NCBI RefSeq assembly: GCF_900231165.1
Contig: NZ_LT960614.1
Location: 4,542,001-4,606,000, forward strand
Origin: Hartmannibacter diazotrophicus
Lineage (GTDB): Bacteria > Pseudomonadota > Alphaproteobacteria > Rhizobiales > Pleomorphomonadaceae
DNA length: 64,000 bases
Direction: 5' to 3'
Under the pieces are notes generated by a model. It saw only the letters and a list, made by a program, of their open reading frames with translations, made no database searches and was not told where the DNA came from. The position numbers and the translations under genes are program-made. This document shows, piece after piece, positions 56,010-64,000 of the stretch (within the stretch, counting starts at the first letter, position 1; the number at the start of each line of letters is the position of its first letter).

Positions 56010-56864
56010 CTAGAACGGTACGCTTTCAAGGAACTCCAGAACCCGCGCGTTCGTAGCTTCCTGCGTCTGCGCCGAGACGGGCACGTCCCAATATTGTGCA
56101 TTCGGAATGCATTCTTCCAGAAAACGCGCCGCCGACGTTGCATGGGAGGCGTCAGCGCCCGGCACGATCAGCGTGGGCGTATCGAGGCAGAGCAGGTCTT
56201 CCGGCTCGGCGCCCGGCGCACTGTCGCGATCGAGCAGCGTGCGCGCCATGCCCGCCACGATGATCCGATAGCGATCGACAGGCAGAGACACATAGGCTTC
56301 GGCAAAAGCGGGATCGCGGCGCAGCACCGACACCCAGGGTCCGCCACGCGGATCGGCGCCGAAAGCCTTGTCGCTGCTGCGGGCAAGGTCGACGACCGCA
56401 GCAAGGCCGTTTTCCTGGACATAGCCGAGATGCGTGGCAAAGCGCTGATGGCCGTTGAGCCTGTAGCGTGCACCGCCGACAGGCCAGAAGAGAACCTGGC
56501 CGGCAACCCGTTCGGGATAGGCGGTGGCAAAGGCCGCAACCGCGCTAACCCCCATGCAGCCCCCCATCAGAAGCGCCCGGTCGATCTTCAGGTGATCGAG
56601 GAGCCCCCTGCCCTGCTCGACATAGTGGCGCCAGGTGACGCGCTCGACACGCCCGCCCGACAGGCCCGTCTCCCGGCGATCGAAGGCGATGCAGGTATAG
56701 TGGGCGGGGAGCGTCTCCAGGAAGCGGATCTTGGCATAGATGCCCTGGGTCGACCATTTCTCCACGGTCGCGTCGAATCCCCCCGGCGCATAGAGAAGAA
56801 GCGGCGGACCGGAGCCCGTCACCTCGTAGCGCGTCTCTATCCCGTCGATGACCGTCGTTGCCAT
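56010..56864 (-). CDS. Alpha/beta hydrolase with Cys at the nucleophile position
   Basis: 284 aa, alpha/beta-hydrolase fold: PLLLYAPGGFDATVEKW (oxyanion region), IAFDRRETGLSGGR, and the nucleophile elbow LMGGCMGVSAVAAFA with Cys103 in place of Ser, as in dienelactone-hydrolase-like enzymes. The acid/His candidates are in LDTPTLIVPGADASHATSAARF. ATG 56864 begins the conserved part. It is last in the ADH-RraA-hydrolase set, 63 nt after the RraA-like gene, so it may hydrolyse a lactone or ester in the same pathway. Confidence 0.85.
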   Translation of the reverse strand: MATTVIDGIETRYEVTGSGPPLLLYAPGGFDATVEKWSTQGIYAKIRFLETLPAHYTCIAFDRRETGLSGGRVERVTWRHYVEQGRGLLDHLKIDRALLMGGCMGVSAVAAFATAYPERVAGQVLFWPVGGARYRLNGHQRFATHLGYVQENGLAAVVDLARSSDKAFGADPRGGPWVSVLRRDPAFAEAYVSLPVDRYRIIVAGMARTLLDRDSAPGAEPEDLLCLDTPTLIVPGADASHATSAARFLEECIPNAQYWDVPVSAQTQEATNARVLEFLESVPF

Positions 56865-56927
56865 TGATTGCCTCCACGCGCCGGCGCGCCGGACTGGTGT
56901 TGAGTTTCTTGCGGCCATACAGGCCGA

Positions 56928-57614
56928 TCAGCCTTTTGTGAGATCCTCGCAGCCGAGGCGCTTCAGGCTTTCCTCGACCCAGGTCTTCGGATCGAGGCGG
57001 CCGGCAAGCGTTTCGGCCAGCGCTTTCGCCTCTGCCTCGCTCTTGGCCTTCGCCGCCTTGTAGACGGCCTCGGTCTGCTCGTAGGGCACGCAGAGAACGC
57101 CGTCGTCGTCGCCGAGCAGGAGATCGCCGGGATTGATCACCATGCCGCCGAGCGCGAGCGGCACATTGATCTCACCAGGACCGTCCTTGTAGGGCCCGCG
57201 GTGGTTGACGCCAGCGGCGAAGACGGGGAACGCATTGGCGCGAATCCAGCCCGAATCCCTGACGGCGCCGTTGACGACGACTCCCACGGCACCCTTCTGG
57301 ATCGCATAGGAGATCATCATCTCGCCGATCAGCGAATTGGTGAGGTCGCCTTCCGCATCCACGACAATGACGTCGCCCGGCTCGGCCATAAGGAGCGCCT
57401 TGTGGAGCATCAGATTGTCGCCCGGACGGGTTCGCACCGTCAGGGCGGCGCCGGCCATGGCCCCGCCCGCGTGCATGGGGCGGAGCACCGGCCCGCCCGC
57501 GAACATGCGGGACATGGCATCGCTGCAATTTGCGACGGGAATGTCGCGAAACCGCTCGGCCGTCGCCGTGTCGACCTTGCGGGTGCGTGGCAGAATACGG
57601 AAACCGATGGTCAC
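56928..57614 (-). CDS. RraA-family aldolase (LigK/CHA aldolase-like)
   Basis: 228 aa from GTG 57614, 8 nt after AGGAGC; a longer in-frame frame is not conserved. RraA fold: NCSDAMSRMFAGGPVLRPMH, RTRPGDNLMLHKALLMAEPGDVIVVDAEG in outline, and GVVVNGAVRDSGWIRANAFPVFAAGVNHRGPYKDGPGEINVPLALGG in outline, with the catalytic RD pair. LigK/ProA proteins are about 228 aa and cleave 4-carboxy-4-hydroxy-2-oxoadipate to pyruvate and oxaloacetate; length and context next to a LigJ-like gene support this over the RNase E inhibitor role. Confidence 0.85.
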   Translation of the reverse strand: MTIGFRILPRTRKVDTATAERFRDIPVANCSDAMSRMFAGGPVLRPMHAGGAMAGAALTVRTRPGDNLMLHKALLMAEPGDVIVVDAEGDLTNSLIGEMMISYAIQKGAVGVVVNGAVRDSGWIRANAFPVFAAGVNHRGPYKDGPGEINVPLALGGMVINPGDLLLGDDDGVLCVPYEQTEAVYKAAKAKSEAEAKALAETLAGRLDPKTWVEESLKRLGCEDLTKG

Positions 57615-57648
57615 GTTGATAGCTCCTGCTTGTCGTTGTCGTTCACCG

Positions 57649-58758
57649 TCACATCCACGGCAACAGCGAGGCATGGATCACATCCGGCACGCCCTGCCCG
57701 CCGACCGATCGAATGGCAAGGTCCGCATCCTTGAGGCCGAAACGGTGCGTGGTGACGAGTTCCAGCGGGAACCGCTTCGAAGCGATCTGTTCGAGGGCCA
57801 GTTCGCAGGCCCGGTAGGAATGCCCGCGCGCGCTCTTGATCGTGATCGCCTTGGTGGTGACCCTTTCCAGAGGGAAATTCGGAAACTCCTTCATCTCGCC
57901 CTGGACAAGGATGGTGCCCGCCTTGCGCTTCAGCGCCTCGACGCCGAGCAGGATCGGGATCGTCCCGGCCCCAGCCGTGCAATCGAGCGAAATGTCGACG
58001 CCCTTGCCGGCGGTGATCTCCATGATGCGGGCGAGCGGATCCTCCTTCTGGACGTCGATGACATAGTCGGCGCCAAGCTTCTTGGCGACCTCCATCCGTG
58101 CCGCGTCCTTGGTCGTTCCGGTCACGATGATCAGCGACGCACCGGCCTGCTTGCAGATCACGGTCTGGGACAGTCCCTGCTGGCCGGGTCCCTGGATCAG
58201 GACGGTGGAATTGTAGCCGACGCCGGAATCGAACAACGACCATTCCACGCCGTTGGCCATCGGTGTCACGAGGCCGGCAAGCTCCGGCGTCACGCCCGCC
58301 GGCACATGGTGCACCACCGCGTTCCAGGGCAGGTAGACATATTGCGAGAAGCCGCCCCAAAGATGCGGCGCGCGCTCGGCCGAGGTGTAGCCGTAGCGGA
58401 TCGCATCGGGGTTGTTGCGCCAGTCGGTGTTTTCGCAGTGGCGGTATTCGCCGCGATGGCACCACTGGCACTTTCCGCAGCTGACATAGTGCTCGACGAA
58501 GACGAGATCGCCTTCCTTGAACCCCTTGCGCGCGGTGAACTCGCGTCCAGCCTTGGCAATATAGCCGATGTTCTCGTGGCCCATGATGGTCGGCGCGGTC
58601 CACGGCGGGTTCTTGAAGAGCTTCACGTCCGTGCCGCAGATACCGGCGACCTCCATCTTCAGCAGGGCACCGTCGACCGGCACGTCGGGCATCGGAAATT
58701 CCCGGATTTCCATCTGGCTCGGCCCGACGCGCACCGCCGCGAAAACGCTTTCAACCAT
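57649..58758 (-). CDS. Zinc-dependent alcohol dehydrogenase
   Basis: 369 aa medium-chain dehydrogenase. Catalytic zinc: Cys in VAGICGTDVKLF and GHENIGYIAKAG. Structural zinc: the four Cys in VSCGKCQWCHRGEYRHC. Rossmann motif IQGPGQQGLSQTVICKQAGASLIIVTG. It oxidises an alcohol with NAD(P)+, substrate unknown. ATG 58758 is preceded by GAGGAAGAGGGC. It heads the set ADH-RraA-hydrolase and is divergent from the small 58892 gene. Confidence 0.94.
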   Translation of the reverse strand: MVESVFAAVRVGPSQMEIREFPMPDVPVDGALLKMEVAGICGTDVKLFKNPPWTAPTIMGHENIGYIAKAGREFTARKGFKEGDLVFVEHYVSCGKCQWCHRGEYRHCENTDWRNNPDAIRYGYTSAERAPHLWGGFSQYVYLPWNAVVHHVPAGVTPELAGLVTPMANGVEWSLFDSGVGYNSTVLIQGPGQQGLSQTVICKQAGASLIIVTGTTKDAARMEVAKKLGADYVIDVQKEDPLARIMEITAGKGVDISLDCTAGAGTIPILLGVEALKRKAGTILVQGEMKEFPNFPLERVTTKAITIKSARGHSYRACELALEQIASKRFPLELVTTHRFGLKDADLAIRSVGGQGVPDVIHASLLPWM

Positions 58759-58891
58759 GCCCTCTTCCTCCCAACGAAAATTTCGCGAAAACCCTTGCAG
58801 ATCGGGCTCGTGCGTTTTGACAAGCACCCCGTTCATGCCCACCTTGTGCGTGCGGCAAGACGAAAGCCCCGGTATCGAGGACGGGTATGCG

Positions 58892-59188
58892 ATGATCAGA
58901 GCGGCACGGCGCGACCCCGGACAACGAGATGCGACGACGCGCATCAAGGCCTGGACGCGCGCGCGTTTCGCGCTTGCCGAGAACGATACGGTCTTCGTCA
59001 GCGAAGTGGCCTGCGGCCTGCCCGGCTGCCCGCCGATCGAGACCGTGGTCGCGTTCTGGACGGCGCCGGAAACCCGCCATGCCTACAAGGTCTTCAAGCC
59101 GCTCGCGTCTGTCGAGGAGACCGACCTGCCCCCCGCCTTCATGAAGACCGCGCTCATCGTCGGGCCGGACGATTTCGGCTGTTGCTGA
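58892..59188 (+). CDS. Conserved small protein with Cys-rich C-terminus
   Basis: 98 aa. No signal peptide or membrane segment. A helical N-terminus (TTRIKAWTRARFALAENDTVFVSEVACGLPGCPPIETVVAFW in outline) is followed by a short beta region (HAYKVFKPLASVEETDLPPAFM) and a C-terminal GPDDFGCC. CGLPGC and FGCC give four Cys that could bind metal. I recall similar small proteins across Hyphomicrobiales without an assigned function. It is convergent with ligJ and divergent from adh. Confidence 0.65.
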   Translation: MIRAARRDPGQRDATTRIKAWTRARFALAENDTVFVSEVACGLPGCPPIETVVAFWTAPETRHAYKVFKPLASVEETDLPPAFMKTALIVGPDDFGCC

Positions 59189-59196
59189 TCCGGCAT

Positions 59197-60222
59197 TCAT
59201 GACGCCGTCGCCCTCTTGAGGCGGGCGTCCAGCCCCGGATAGACGCGGCGGGCATTGCCCTCGAAGATCTTGTAGCGATCCGCCTCGCTGAGTGCCGGGA
59301 TGCCGTCAACATAGCGGCGCGTGTCGTCGAAGGCATGGCCGGTTTCTGGATCGATCCCCTTCACCGCGCCAAGCATCTCGGATGCGAAGAGGATGTTGTC
59401 GACCGGGATCACCTTCGCCATCAGCTCCATGCCAGGCAGATGGTAGACGCAAGTGTCGAACCAGACATTGCCGAGCAGGTGATCGGTGAGCAGCGGCTTG
59501 TTCAGCGCCTGCGCGAGACCGCGATAGCGTCCCCAGTGGAACGGGACCGCGCCGCCACCATGGGGAATGACGAAGCGCAGCGCCGGAAAATCGGCGAAGA
59601 GGTTTCCCTGGAGCAACTGCATGAAGGCGGTCGTGTCGGCATTGATGTAGTGAGCGCCGGTGTGATGGAAATTGGGATTGCAGGACGAGGTCACGTGGAT
59701 CATCGCCGGCATGTCGAGTTCGCAAAGCTTCTCGTAGAGCGGATACCAGTGCCGGTCGGTGATCGGCGGATCAGTCCAATAACCCCCGGACGGATCGGGG
59801 TTGACGTTGACCCCGACGAAGCCGAGCGCGGCCAGACGCTCCAGTTCCGGCAGGCAGTTCTTCGGCGAGACGCCGGGAAATTGCGGCAACTGACCGACAG
59901 GGACGAACTTGTCGGGCAAGAGCTCCGCGATCCGATGGATCAGATCGTTGGACAGGCGCGTCCAGACCTTCCCGGTCTCCTCCGTGCCGACATGATGCGC
60001 CATGCCGGCCGCGCGCGGCGAGAAGAGGGCCATGTCGATGCCACGCTCGCCCTGCAGCTTGAGCTGCGGCTGAACGGACTCCAGCAGCATCGCGTCGGTG
60101 ATGCCGAGTTCGGTGGTTGTCGGCCGGCGCATGGGGTCGGCCAAGCCGGCGAGTTGCCGGTCGCGGAACTGATGCAGGGCCTGCGGCTCGGTCGTGTAAT
60201 GGCCGTGGATGTCGATGATCAT
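59197..60222 (-). CDS. ligJ: LigJ-like 4-oxalomesaconate hydratase (amidohydrolase family)
   Basis: 341 aa. Strongly LigJ-like from end to end: MIIDIHGHYTT (metal ligands His6 and His8), DMALFSPRAAGMAHHVG, GFVGVNVNPDPSGGYWTDPPITDRHWYPLYEKLCELDMPAMIHVTSSCNPNFHHTGAHYINADTTAFMQLL in outline, VIPHGGGAVPFHWGRYRGLAQ, VIPVDNILFASEMLGAVKGIDPETGHAFDDTRRYVD in outline, and GNARRVYPGLDARLK. LigJ hydrates 4-oxalomesaconate to 4-carboxy-4-hydroxy-2-oxoadipate, the substrate of the LigK-like aldolase. ATGA overlap with the upstream decarboxylase-like gene. This is the best pathway anchor in the region. Confidence 0.92.
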   Translation of the reverse strand: MIIDIHGHYTTEPQALHQFRDRQLAGLADPMRRPTTTELGITDAMLLESVQPQLKLQGERGIDMALFSPRAAGMAHHVGTEETGKVWTRLSNDLIHRIAELLPDKFVPVGQLPQFPGVSPKNCLPELERLAALGFVGVNVNPDPSGGYWTDPPITDRHWYPLYEKLCELDMPAMIHVTSSCNPNFHHTGAHYINADTTAFMQLLQGNLFADFPALRFVIPHGGGAVPFHWGRYRGLAQALNKPLLTDHLLGNVWFDTCVYHLPGMELMAKVIPVDNILFASEMLGAVKGIDPETGHAFDDTRRYVDGIPALSEADRYKIFEGNARRVYPGLDARLKRATAS

Positions 60223-61109
60223 GACATGCTCCCGGCAGCGACCTGCTCGCTCAGGGGGAAAATCTCACGCAGCGTGTAGCGCTTCGGCGTCAGCCTCTGG
60301 CGATGGGCGAAGTCGAACAGCAGATCCATCGCGGCGGCGTTGGGGGCAAGGCCGTAGGGCAACGCGGCCACGCCCGTCTGCGGGCAGAGCGCACGCGCCT
60401 CCTCGAACATCTTCGCAAGTTCATCGGCAATCCAGGGATAACGATCCAGCAGGTCGTTCCTTACCGAAACGACGTGGTTGACCGGGAAAATGCCCGTTTC
60501 CGCCGACCAGGCCTTCGCCGCGGCTTCCGCGTCCGGAATCACCGGCCTGACGGCTGCCGGATCCACGTCCCGTTCGCCCATGATCGCGACAAGATCACCG
60601 GCATGGAGCAAGTCGCGCAGCCGGCTGCCGGCGGGCGCTCGCTCGCAACCCGGCGGATCGACATACTCGGCCACATGGGCGTCTTCCATCGTGACCCAGG
60701 TGATGCTGTCGAGGTCGACGCCATACTGGGTCGCGAGGATGCCGCGAATCCAGACGCCCGTCGTCTGCGAAAAGGCCCGGACACCAACCCTTCGACCCTC
60801 CAGATCCTTCGGGCCGCGAAGACCGGACGCCGCGAGACAGACGAGATTGGAATGATGCAGCCGTCGCCAGAGCGGGATCGGCAGCGCCGTGATCGGCTTG
60901 CCGAAGTCATGTGCGAGAAGATGCGTCGTCAGCGCCATCTCCGAGACATCGAGATCTCCGCCCCGGACCATATGCCTGAACGCGCCGGGAAGCGGATCGA
61001 ACTCGACGAATTCGAGCGTCAGCCGCGGGGATCGGACGCGCCCGTCCTTCAAGGCAGCGACATGTTCATGCTTGCCGAGAGCGATCCTGATCGTCAGTCG
61101 GTCGTCCAC
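60219..61109 (-). CDS. Diverged 4,5-dihydroxyphthalate decarboxylase-like/SBP-fold protein
   Basis: 296 aa, no signal peptide. Related to the 54921 protein but much diverged: LTIRIALGKHEHVAALKDG, GAFRHMVRGGDLDVSEMALTTHLLAHDFGKPITALPIPLWRRLHHSNLV in outline, LEGRRVGVRAFSQTTGVWIRGILATQYGV, and GIFPVNHVVSVRNDLLDRYPWIADELAKMFEEA. It may be a decarboxylase acting on a different ring acid or a binding protein that has lost activity. It lies upstream of ligJ with ATGA overlap, so both act together. Confidence 0.75.
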   Translation of the reverse strand: MDDRLTIRIALGKHEHVAALKDGRVRSPRLTLEFVEFDPLPGAFRHMVRGGDLDVSEMALTTHLLAHDFGKPITALPIPLWRRLHHSNLVCLAASGLRGPKDLEGRRVGVRAFSQTTGVWIRGILATQYGVDLDSITWVTMEDAHVAEYVDPPGCERAPAGSRLRDLLHAGDLVAIMGERDVDPAAVRPVIPDAEAAAKAWSAETGIFPVNHVVSVRNDLLDRYPWIADELAKMFEEARALCPQTGVAALPYGLAPNAAAMDLLFDFAHRQRLTPKRYTLREIFPLSEQVAAGSMS

Positions 61110-61357: not shown

Positions 61358-61852
61358 TCAGGGCGCAACCATGCGGATAAGCGTGGCAAGACCGGCCGCG
61401 ATCAGGGGCAGCGGCAGGGAGGCGGCGAGCCTCGTTGCGCCGAAGCGCAGGCCCATCAGCGGGATCTCGTACATGATCACCCGATGCATGGCGAAAACCG
61501 ACCAGGCCGTCAGGAGCGTGATCAGCTGAACCTGGCCGGCGCCGGCCTCATTGAGAACGACGACGAGCGGAAAGGAGATCATCGGGCCGGCAGGAATAAC
61601 GCCGCCGACCAGCATGGCGATGATCACGCCGCGAAGCCCGGACTCCGGACCGATCTGTTCGGCAACAAGGCCGCTCGGCACCAGCATGCCGACGAAGCCT
61701 GCCGTCAGCACAGCCACGATGATGCGCGGCATCACCTGCAACGCGCGGATGGTCGCTGCCCGCGTGGTCCTCACGCCTTCGGCAAGGCCGTAGCGCCGGA
61801 AGACCATGTAGCCCAGCACGACGGCACCGACCCAGAGCAGAAGCGTCGCCAT
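61358..61852 (-). CDS. Small permease-like membrane protein (paralogue 1)
   Basis: 164 aa with about four to five hydrophobic segments. Its central signature GGVIPAGPMISFPLVVVLNEAGAGQVQLITLLTAWSVFAMHRVIMYEIPLMG in outline is clearly repeated in the next gene. I cannot assign a named family with confidence; it resembles putative permeases of the YraQ/DUF318 kind in half-length form. The ATG at 61852 overlaps the stop of the upstream paralogue, suggesting a heteromeric complex. Confidence 0.72.
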   Translation of the reverse strand: MATLLLWVGAVVLGYMVFRRYGLAEGVRTTRAATIRALQVMPRIIVAVLTAGFVGMLVPSGLVAEQIGPESGLRGVIIAMLVGGVIPAGPMISFPLVVVLNEAGAGQVQLITLLTAWSVFAMHRVIMYEIPLMGLRFGATRLAASLPLPLIAAGLATLIRMVAP

Positions 61853-62469
61853 CACTGGTCCTCCCGGCCGGGGGAGGCGCCGATCGAATCCGCCGGCGCA
61901 TCGTCCGGATCCCTCGCCCACAACGTCAGCAGCCCCGCAATCAGCGGCAGCGGCAACGAGGCGAGAAAGCGGACGACCGCGAACTCGATGCCCATCAGCG
62001 GCACTTCCCACATGAAAACCCGCTGAAGGCCCATCGTGGTCCAGGCCGTCACATAGGTGACGAGCGCGCCGAGCCCGGTGCCGCCGTTGCGCAGCACGGT
62101 GACGAGCGGAAAGGCCGTCATCGGTCCGCCCGGCGTCGCCGCTCCGGCGAGGGTCGCAATCGCCATGCCCTTGACGCCCGACTGCTTGCCCATGTAGCGG
62201 CCGAGGAAGGCCGGCGGCAACAGCACCTGCACGAAGCCCGCGATCAGCAGGGCCGCGCCAAGCTTGGGAACGAGGAAGGCGATGAGGGACAGGTCTTCGT
62301 GAAAGGAGACCTCAAAGGCCTCGGCGCCGAACTTGAGATACGCCAATGTTCCGGTGACAATCGCCAGACCGGCGAAGATGAAGAAGGACTGATCGAAGGC
62401 CTCCTTCCAGGAGAAGGATTTGCCCGACTTGCGCGACATCTTCGAATCGGGTGGCGACGCTTTGTTCAT
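61852..62469 (-). CDS. Small permease-like membrane protein (paralogue 2)
   Basis: 205 aa. A Lys/Ser-rich cytoplasmic start (SKMSRKSGKSFSWKEAFDQ) leads to about five membrane segments with GAATPGGPMTAFPLVTVLRNGGTGLGALVTYVTAWTTMGLQRVFMWEVPLMG in outline, ending FLASLPLPLIAGLLTLWARD. It aligns with paralogue 1 over about 110 residues. Its start overlaps the stop of the upstream dehydrogenase gene. Together the pair could form a transporter for the pathway acid. Function not assigned. Confidence 0.72.
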   Translation of the reverse strand: MNKASPPDSKMSRKSGKSFSWKEAFDQSFFIFAGLAIVTGTLAYLKFGAEAFEVSFHEDLSLIAFLVPKLGAALLIAGFVQVLLPPAFLGRYMGKQSGVKGMAIATLAGAATPGGPMTAFPLVTVLRNGGTGLGALVTYVTAWTTMGLQRVFMWEVPLMGIEFAVVRFLASLPLPLIAGLLTLWARDPDDAPADSIGASPGREDQ

Positions 62470-63326
62470 CCAAGACCGCCTTCCGCAGGCTGAAGCGGGC
62501 GCACGCTCCGGCCCAGGTAATTGACTTCGTCGCCATAGAGCAGCGCCTTGACGTCGGCAGCGCTCAATGTCTTGACGAGCTGGTCGACCTGGCCGGCAAG
62601 CGGCAGCATGAGGCCGAGCTGCTGGGCCATGTCCATCGTGATGTCCATGTCCTTTTCCTGCCAGGTGAAGCGGGTCGTGTCCCAGCGGCGCAGCGTGCCG
62701 TTGGTGCCGGGGCAGTCGAGCAGCACCTCGCGCATGCGCTGACCGTCCAGCCCATAGCGCTTGGCGATCAGCAGCGTTTCGAAATTGCCGACGCAATGGA
62801 TCCAGTGCAGGAGATTGTTGCAGGCCTTGGCCACCTGCCCGGCGCCGACCGGCCCGACGCGCACGACGTCGCGGCTGTAGCTCATGAGGACGGGCCGGAC
62901 GGCATCGATGTCGTCCTCGGCCCCGCCGCATAGCGAGAGAAGCGTGCCTTCCCGAGCCCCCGTCGCGCCGTAGACCACCGGTGCATCGACGAGACGAAGA
63001 CCCCTGCCGGCGAGACGGCCTGCAAGGTCACGCACTGTCTCCGGCCGCACGGTGGCAGCCACGACGATGACCGTTCCCGTCTTCGCAGCGCCGGCGAGCG
63101 TCTCGCAGACCTCTTCCACCTGTGCATCCGTCGCAACGGCAAGGATGAAGAGGCCGCCATCGTCGGCCATGTCCTGAAGATAGTCGCCGGTCGGCATACC
63201 GCGTTCGCGTGCGAGGGCCATGCGTTCGTCGCTGACGTCGAAGACGGCGACATCGAATCCCCTGGCTTGAATGTGCCCGGCCATGGCGAGCCCCATTTCT
63301 CCGGCTCCGACAACAACTGTCCGCAT
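62466..63326 (-). CDS. Beta-hydroxyacid dehydrogenase (3-hydroxyisobutyrate dehydrogenase-like)
   Basis: 286 aa. Rossmann motif VVVGAGEMGLAMAGHI (residues 4-19), LFILAVATDAQVEEVC, the substrate-binding region VDAPVVYGATGAREGTLLSLCGG, VGPVGAGQVAKACNNLLHWI with the catalytic Lys, and a helical C-domain. It oxidises a hydroxyacid with NAD(P)+. ATG 63326 is chosen because the upstream residues are not conserved. It starts 34 nt after the ThDP enzyme gene, in a four-gene set with the membrane pair. Confidence 0.9.
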   Translation of the reverse strand: MRTVVVGAGEMGLAMAGHIQARGFDVAVFDVSDERMALARERGMPTGDYLQDMADDGGLFILAVATDAQVEEVCETLAGAAKTGTVIVVAATVRPETVRDLAGRLAGRGLRLVDAPVVYGATGAREGTLLSLCGGAEDDIDAVRPVLMSYSRDVVRVGPVGAGQVAKACNNLLHWIHCVGNFETLLIAKRYGLDGQRMREVLLDCPGTNGTLRRWDTTRFTWQEKDMDITMDMAQQLGLMLPLAGQVDQLVKTLSAADVKALLYGDEVNYLGRSVRPLQPAEGGLG

Positions 63327-63360
63327 CACTGTCCCCCGTTTCCGCGGCCTCTCATCCGGA

Positions 63361-64000
63361 TCAACCGGCATGTTGGGTGATCGTGTCGACGAGCGCGGGC
63401 ACGCCGCTTTTCACCTTGGCGATCGCGCGTTCGAGCGCTCCGCCGATATCGCCGGGGTCTTCGATCGGCCCTTCCGCATACCAGCCGAAGCCGCGCGCGA
63501 TGGTCGAAAAGTCCGGCGCCGGATCCATGATGTCCATGCCGATATAGGCGCGTTCCTCGGGTGTCTTACGCTGGCGGGCGACCGTGATCTGGTGTTCCCA
63601 GTCGTTGTAGTAGGCGCGGTTGTTGTGCATCACGCAGAGAAACGGGACCTTGTGCTTGGCCGCGAACCAGAGCGCGCCGACGTCGAACATCAGGTCGCCG
63701 TCGGTCTGGCAATCGACGACAAGGCGGCCGGTGCCACGATGGGCGAGCGCGATGCCAGTCGCCATTCCGATCTGCGTGCCCGTGCCGAGGGCCTTTCCGG
63801 GCCACCGGTAGGGCCTGTCGAAATCCCACAGCTTCAGAGCCCAGTCCTCAAAGGCATTCGTGGTGAGCACCCAATCCTCGGTGCGAATGCGATCCCAGAC
63901 CTCGCTCGCCAGCCTCGGCAATGTGATCGGTTGCGCATCCCAGTTCTCCAGCGCCTGCTCGCGCCAGGCCTGTCGCGCCCGCGCATGCATCTCGCCCACC
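63361..64000 (-). CDS. ThDP-dependent enzyme, C-terminal part (5' end outside window)
   Basis: 212 residues visible; the gene continues beyond the window. The C-terminal ThDP-binding domain has YRWPGKALGTGTQIGMATGIALAHRGTGRLVV and CQTDGDLMFDVGALWFAAKHKVPFLCVMHNNRAYYNDW in outline (GDG...NN motif, with the first Gly as Thr). The benzoylformate decarboxylase/acetolactate-synthase-like group decarboxylates 2-oxo acids. It is followed by the hydroxyacid dehydrogenase, fitting decarboxylation and oxidation of pathway intermediates. Exact substrate unknown. Confidence 0.87.
   Translation of the reverse strand, partial: VGEMHARARQAWREQALENWDAQPITLPRLASEVWDRIRTEDWVLTTNAFEDWALKLWDFDRPYRWPGKALGTGTQIGMATGIALAHRGTGRLVVDCQTDGDLMFDVGALWFAAKHKVPFLCVMHNNRAYYNDWEHQITVARQRKTPEERAYIGMDIMDPAPDFSTIARGFGWYAEGPIEDPGDIGGALERAIAKVKSGVPALVDTITQHAG

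Follow-up and report, generated by a model that had tools for sequence, protein, structure and literature searches.

The gene pair and its surroundings

The window, a stretch of 64,000 nucleotides of the Hartmannibacter diazotrophicus genome (contig NZ_LT960614.1), contains two adjacent genes, referred to here as B and A, that sit within a run of minus-strand genes. The pair and the genes around it are as follows, with positions counted along the window:

63361..63999, minus strand: thiamine-pyrophosphate enzyme, C-terminal part (domain match); the gene continues beyond the window end
62466..63371, minus strand: member of the beta-hydroxyacid dehydrogenase family, upstream of B (NAD_binding_2, NAD_binding_11)
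61852..62469, minus strand: gene B, putative first half-permease, reading frame of 205 aa (PF03773, E 1.2e-7); N-terminus predicted inside
61358..61852, minus strand: gene A, putative second half-permease, reading frame of 164 aa (PF03773, E 9.5e-4); N-terminus predicted outside
60219..61109, minus strand: NMT1/THI5-like protein, downstream of A (PF09084, 22.3 bits, cut-off 20.5)
59197..60222, minus strand: amidohydrolase of the same cluster (Amidohydro_2)
56010..58947, minus strand: zinc alcohol dehydrogenase, RraA-like aldolase and alpha/beta hydrolase, the rest of the catabolic cluster (domain matches)

Upstream of the pair there are also genes for TctA and TctC, separated by a short reading frame, and additional TctC, TctA and TctB genes were found further downstream. 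The stop codon of B and the start codon of A have one base in common (TGATG), and the ATG of B in turn shares four bases with the end of the dehydrogenase gene upstream of it (62466-63371). Alignment of A with B gave 63 identical residues out of 150 (42%, E 5e-36), so the two are paralogues and a chance likeness is ruled out. The initial annotation had described adjacent membrane proteins with a common GxxPxGPMxxFPLV core and AWxxMxxxRVxMxExPLMG segment, and both motifs were found within this 150-residue alignment. The overlapping start and stop that it had noticed is the TGATG on the minus strand, and the catabolic setting was confirmed by the domain content of the neighbouring genes. Both proteins of the window are free of cysteine.

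Relation to the ArsP_1 superfamily

In a Pfam search B matched PF03773 (ArsP_1) with 31.7 bits over positions 17-130 of the 294 in the profile and A with 18.8 bits (cut-off 32.3 for both), the part matched by both being the first half of the profile. A whole-genome PF03773 search gave B 36.1 bits, which is above the cut-off, and five related B genes together with one lone half-size gene also exceeded it with 37.0-53.9 bits. The window genome additionally has a separate single-chain PF03773 protein (C1:2557852). In the relatives G035 and G082 the pair's first gene matched positions 13-130 and the second 168-277, which is the same order of N-like and C-like halves as in single-chain ArsP_1 proteins (PF03773; TCDB 2.A.119 ArsP; NF033936 SO_0444). 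As a single-chain set we used 26 of 30 PF03773 loci (L128-L157), after dropping L136 (no ORF), L150 and L157 (antisense ORF) and L144 (long middle part); the pair was represented in alignments A1 and A2 by 23 B and 17 A sequences picked for clear starts.

Based on profile-profile comparison, the B family matched the N half of the single-chain proteins at 1e-10 and the C half at 4e-9, the A family matched the two halves at 2e-8 and 1e-8, and the two single-chain halves matched each other at 4e-7. The A and B families were each other's best match (2e-41). Thus the HMM-HMM search proposed in the initial annotation led to both halves of PF03773, each of the half-sized paralogues corresponds to about half of a single-chain permease whose two halves are related, and the outcome named there as a reason for rejection, a clear hit to some family without a transport role, did not turn up. 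The split-permease reading is largely supported by these results. The two homologous halves that make up one single-chain protein are not found within A or within B and are both present only as the gene pair; A and B are therefore superfamily relatives of PF03773 rather than standard members, because each chain is one half. A recent fission of a single-chain permease with the TPFCSC motif was considered and rejected, since the A-B match (E 2e-41) is far closer than the match of either family to either half.

The homologous single-chain proteins differ from the pair in being encoded by one gene instead of two and in having other neighbours. They also differ in the TPFCSC motif of their first half, which was present in 26/26 single-chain proteins and is replaced in A and B by PGGP-like residues that include P113 and G115 (B numbering). 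Nine of the 75 B and 20 of the 75 A proteins from related pairs (see below) were cysteine-free. These residues bear on the possibility that the two chains form an antiparallel pair that exports a metal or metalloid in the manner of ArsP, a type characterised by efflux of trivalent organoarsenicals (TCDB 2.A.119), or of the SO_0444 Cu/Zn efflux protein. Matches to PF03773 and NF033936 speak for such an exporter, but the NF033936 score of B was 34.1 bits against an equivalog cut-off of 300 (A gave no match), the neighbours are catabolic and not ars or metal genes, and thiol-dependent export is disfavoured because the TPFCSC motif is replaced and the window proteins lack cysteine. We regard a metal or metalloid exporter as unlikely.

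The pair itself was found to be conserved. B was matched in 61 of 397 genomes from the same order, and at least two matches lay side by side in 52 of these 61. A scan across named genomes yielded 149 relatives, of which 80 loci were kept; in 75 of the 80, A came next after B in the same orientation. At contig ends B was missing in one locus (L120) and A in three (L061, L072, L100), and one further locus (L117) had B without A after it. The start of A was at most 12 nt from the stop of B in 75/75 pairs, and 40 of the pairs could have an ATGA-type overlap. A maximum-likelihood tree was built from 38 of the 75 pairs and the window pair; a single branch in it (100/99) parted 39 A from 39 B sequences, and pairwise identities among A correlated with those among B (r 0.81 over 2775 pairs, uncorrected for species relatedness). 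From these sequences A and B look like one old duplication that has been passed on as a unit. In two distant half-size pairs, L174 (1164-2215) and L177 (1401-2557), it is the A-like gene that comes first, as judged by charge pattern; L177 belongs to the same family as the window.

Charge bias and predicted topology

Lysines and arginines (K+R) were counted per equivalent loop in a joint alignment of the 75 A/B pairs. Loop 1, between the first two helices, had more K+R in A in 71 pairs (four ties), and loop 2, after the second helix, had more in B in 73 (two ties). The R/WE stretch was richer in A in 59 pairs (16 ties), and in none of these three segments was the difference reversed in any pair. 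Both ends of the proteins were richer in B, with 60 pairs against six for the N-terminus and 60 against five for the C-terminus. Net bias was positive in 75/75 B proteins (mean +4.9) and in 1/75 A proteins (mean -3.7). Mean values ran in the same direction in a motif-anchored count of 53 pairs, from which the other 22 of the 75 were omitted as the pattern did not find the motif.

According to the positive-inside rule, loops rich in K+R are read as lying inside and so indicate the topology of a membrane protein. Because of their opposite K+R patterns under this rule, B is predicted to have its N-terminus inside and A its N-terminus outside, so that the two would insert inverted relative to each other, and inverted topologies in turn predict an antiparallel heterodimer. 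The 75 pairs do not count as 75 independent events, because the charge inversion has been maintained since one duplication. The same inversion was detected between the halves of the single-chain ArsP_1 proteins (loop 2 26/26, loop 1 24/26, R/WE 26/26), just as between A and B, which suggests that these halves are inverted rather than direct repeats. In the passages on ArsP in PMC7176098 the protein is treated as a 4+4 TMS repeat and the word 'inverted' does not occur; the charge patterns speak for inverted repeats in ArsP-type permeases, a point absent from that 4+4 reading as given there.

Lone relatives of the pair were also found. Four genomes of one genus (L170-L173) have a lone half-size gene of 166 residues whose scores against the two families are much the same (105-110 bits for B, 105-107 for A), and a search for a second half-size gene in these four genomes gave no other match below E 0.02. 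The bias of the lone genes was 0 to +2, between B and A and touching the tails of both, and on sequence grounds they are what a dual-topology homodimer would look like. In all four genomes the lone gene overlaps a gene of 521-553 aa, which has a PEP-utilisers mobile domain in L171, where the lone gene is bordered at its opposite end by a flavodoxin-like gene.

As the lone genes presumably work alone, one may ask whether A and B are two independent transporters, each homodimeric and merely in the same operon. The opposite charge bias in 75 pairs, the constant order and spacing and the parallel trees argue against independent homodimers, and a strongly biased chain cannot easily make an antiparallel homodimer; we consider two independent transporters improbable. 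A parallel heterodimer, in which both chains insert the same way and the charge differences are due to something else, would agree with the published description of ArsP, a 4+4 TMS repeat that is not called inverted in the passages concerned (PMC7176098). However, three loops invert together, both between A and B and between the halves of the single-chain proteins, and the parallel arrangement appears quite improbable beside the antiparallel one.

With regard to the antiparallel arrangement, the features seen here were adjacent homologous genes, opposite K+R bias, low-bias lone homologues and inverted fused homologues. Paired dual-topology transporters are known among the SMR, DUF606, Fluc and UPF0016 proteins. 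Like A and B, these pairs are adjacent homologous genes with opposite charge bias, and like the A/B superfamily they have lone low-bias and fused relatives. They differ in belonging to unrelated families, and the A and B halves are larger (~165-205 aa, with a predicted helix break). Such transporters (PMC3962082) are among the closest known systems to A and B. Antiparallel paired half-transporters are a known kind, and their probable occurrence in the ArsP_1 superfamily appears to be new: we found no earlier description, and no split or antiparallel PF03773 pair was described in the literature covered, from which most subscription journals and all preprints outside PMC were missing.

The relation between lone, paired and single-chain forms was followed in a tree of 56 rows (15 of the 75 pairs, nine of the 26 single-chain proteins, four lone genes and two distant genes). 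A, B and the lone genes were set apart from both single-chain halves, weakly (78/85) and with long branches; B did not form one group (three changes), and the lone genes joined a polytomy of B. The proposal in the initial annotation that the pair replaces a single-chain permease finds no backing here, as the pair stands apart, if weakly, from both halves in this tree and the window genome still has a single-chain PF03773 protein as well.

The first predicted helix (TM1) was hydrophobic in 44/53 B and 50/53 A proteins. In contrast, 26/26 single-chain proteins had a hydrophilic linker ahead of their second half, and their N-terminal TM1 was ambiguous, with nine of the 24 measurable values above 1.6. 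The charge pattern is best explained if each half crosses the membrane four times and has a re-entrant hairpin where the PxGP motif lies. Halves with five crossings were set aside, the charges of the R/WE stretch and the C-terminus fitting four crossings and a hairpin better. Because the halves would be even-numbered in crossings, joining two of them in opposite orientation would need the gain or loss of a helix.

AlphaFold2 models of the single chains had a mean pLDDT of 84.2 for B and 92.8 for A. The A model showed one unbroken helix over residues 2-57, and a TM1-TM2 hairpin was not shown by this model by itself. For both models the top match among solved structures was 9x2m_F, a glucitol 'Gut' transporter (143 residues of B at 4.1 Å, 140 of A at 3.5 Å), with a Z of 7.2, which is below the caution level of the tool for helical proteins and may reflect only a common arrangement; the next rows had 5.1. 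The PDB held no sequence relative of A or B, and our literature search found no paper on 9x2m. The glucitol PTS membrane domain (SrlA and the C-terminal half of SrlE; PDB 9x2m) resembles the pair in being a two-chain transporter from neighbouring genes. It differs in that A and B have no PTS partner domains, and hhalign gave no significant match to SrlA or SrlE, either for the pair (probability <=1.1%) or for the ArsP_1 N half with SrlA (16.8%). We take a fold shared by the pair and this domain, suggested by the models, as a lead.

Lone, paired and fused states coexist in the superfamily. It is conceivable, though doubtful, that they represent a whole path, from a lone dual-topology half through an antiparallel pair to a fused chain without the second TM1, and that the pair is an elevator-like carboxylate transporter sharing its fold with the split glucitol PTS membrane domain. 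If so, with an even number of crossings per half and the PxGP motif forming the tip of the hairpin, head-to-tail fusion would be possible only by loss of the TM1 of the second half, as in single-chain ArsP_1, with both TM1s retained in the A/B pair. With its opposite charges and its lone and fused relatives, the family offers tractable material for studying how inverted-repeat transporters evolve.

The proposed transporter, its neighbourhoods and candidate cargo

In B numbering P113, G115, P121, E155 and R167 were invariant in 75/75 B and 75/75 A proteins, and R150 was present in 149/150 chains. We infer that A and B are probably the halves of one transporter of the PF03773 superfamily, an antiparallel pair with a symmetric charged site and an organic anion as cargo. 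The N-terminus of B would lie inside and that of A outside, and the gene overlap, through translational coupling, would supply both chains in step. The two would pack antiparallel with inverted pseudo-symmetry, as within one single-chain ArsP_1 polypeptide, and the PxGP break and R150, E155 and R167 of both chains would form the translocation site. In chains that lack a conserved cysteine motif, a thiol-binding metal or arsenical would be an unlikely cargo and an organic anion a likelier one, a candidate being an aromatic or other carboxylate of the adjoining pathway. The genes annotated as 'permease' and 'hypothetical protein' would then be two halves of one likely transporter, and annotation gene by gene or single knock-outs of A or B would mislead.

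The neighbours in the 80 loci were called with a simple scorer of our own, which makes the counts approximate. UbiD decarboxylases were located near the pair in about 12/80 loci and Rieske LigXa-like oxygenases in about 16/80, and a TPP enzyme, UbiX and TctC/TctA in several. Other neighbours were pterin genes (RibD_C, PTPS), FdhD with MobA, amidase with MatE, and isochorismatase with a molybdenum hydroxylase. Because the contexts vary, no single cargo suits all relatives. For A and B an organic, often aromatic, carboxylate is favoured, and the neighbourhoods suggest an as yet uncharacterised step of transport in the catabolism of aromatic acids by Alphaproteobacteria. Export of an intermediate is slightly favoured over uptake, with low confidence, because the window cluster already has tripartite uptake systems. 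That A and B are instead the membrane partner of orphan TctC-type binding proteins in a different tripartite uptake system seems very unlikely, for although the window and 16/80 loci have TctC genes close to the pair, the cluster in the window, like several of the UbiD clusters, has a TctA of its own, and at many loci of the pair no TctC is within reach.

Several loci had further neighbours of the pair. A conserved protein of 166-211 aa is encoded between the Rieske LigXa-like gene and the pair in L063 (9447-9950) and 13 other loci, and the one such protein examined had no match in Pfam. In Acetobacteraceae and their kin (L057, L064, L090, L098, L105, L115 and others) the pair is flanked on one side by flgI (flagellar P-ring) and on the other by a cluster of RibD_C, PTPS, glycosyltransferase and methyltransferase genes. 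On the Ti plasmid of Agrobacterium larrymoorei (L042, 7935-9007) the pair has genes for rhodanese, an FMN-dependent monooxygenase and an ABC transporter as its neighbours and adjoins the trb region.

Other transporters were found at the place of the pair in related clusters. In Rhizobium sp. WYJ-E13 it is taken by ABC transporter genes. On a plasmid of Phyllobacterium zundukense (L041, 14388-15441) a two-gene chromate-transporter (CHR) pair adjoins the NMT1-like and amidohydrolase genes. Short-chain CHR pairs resemble A and B in being a two-gene transporter at this position; they are annotated as another family. The CHR pair apparently occupies the A/B place in Phyllobacterium zundukense, possibly a replacement by another split transporter.
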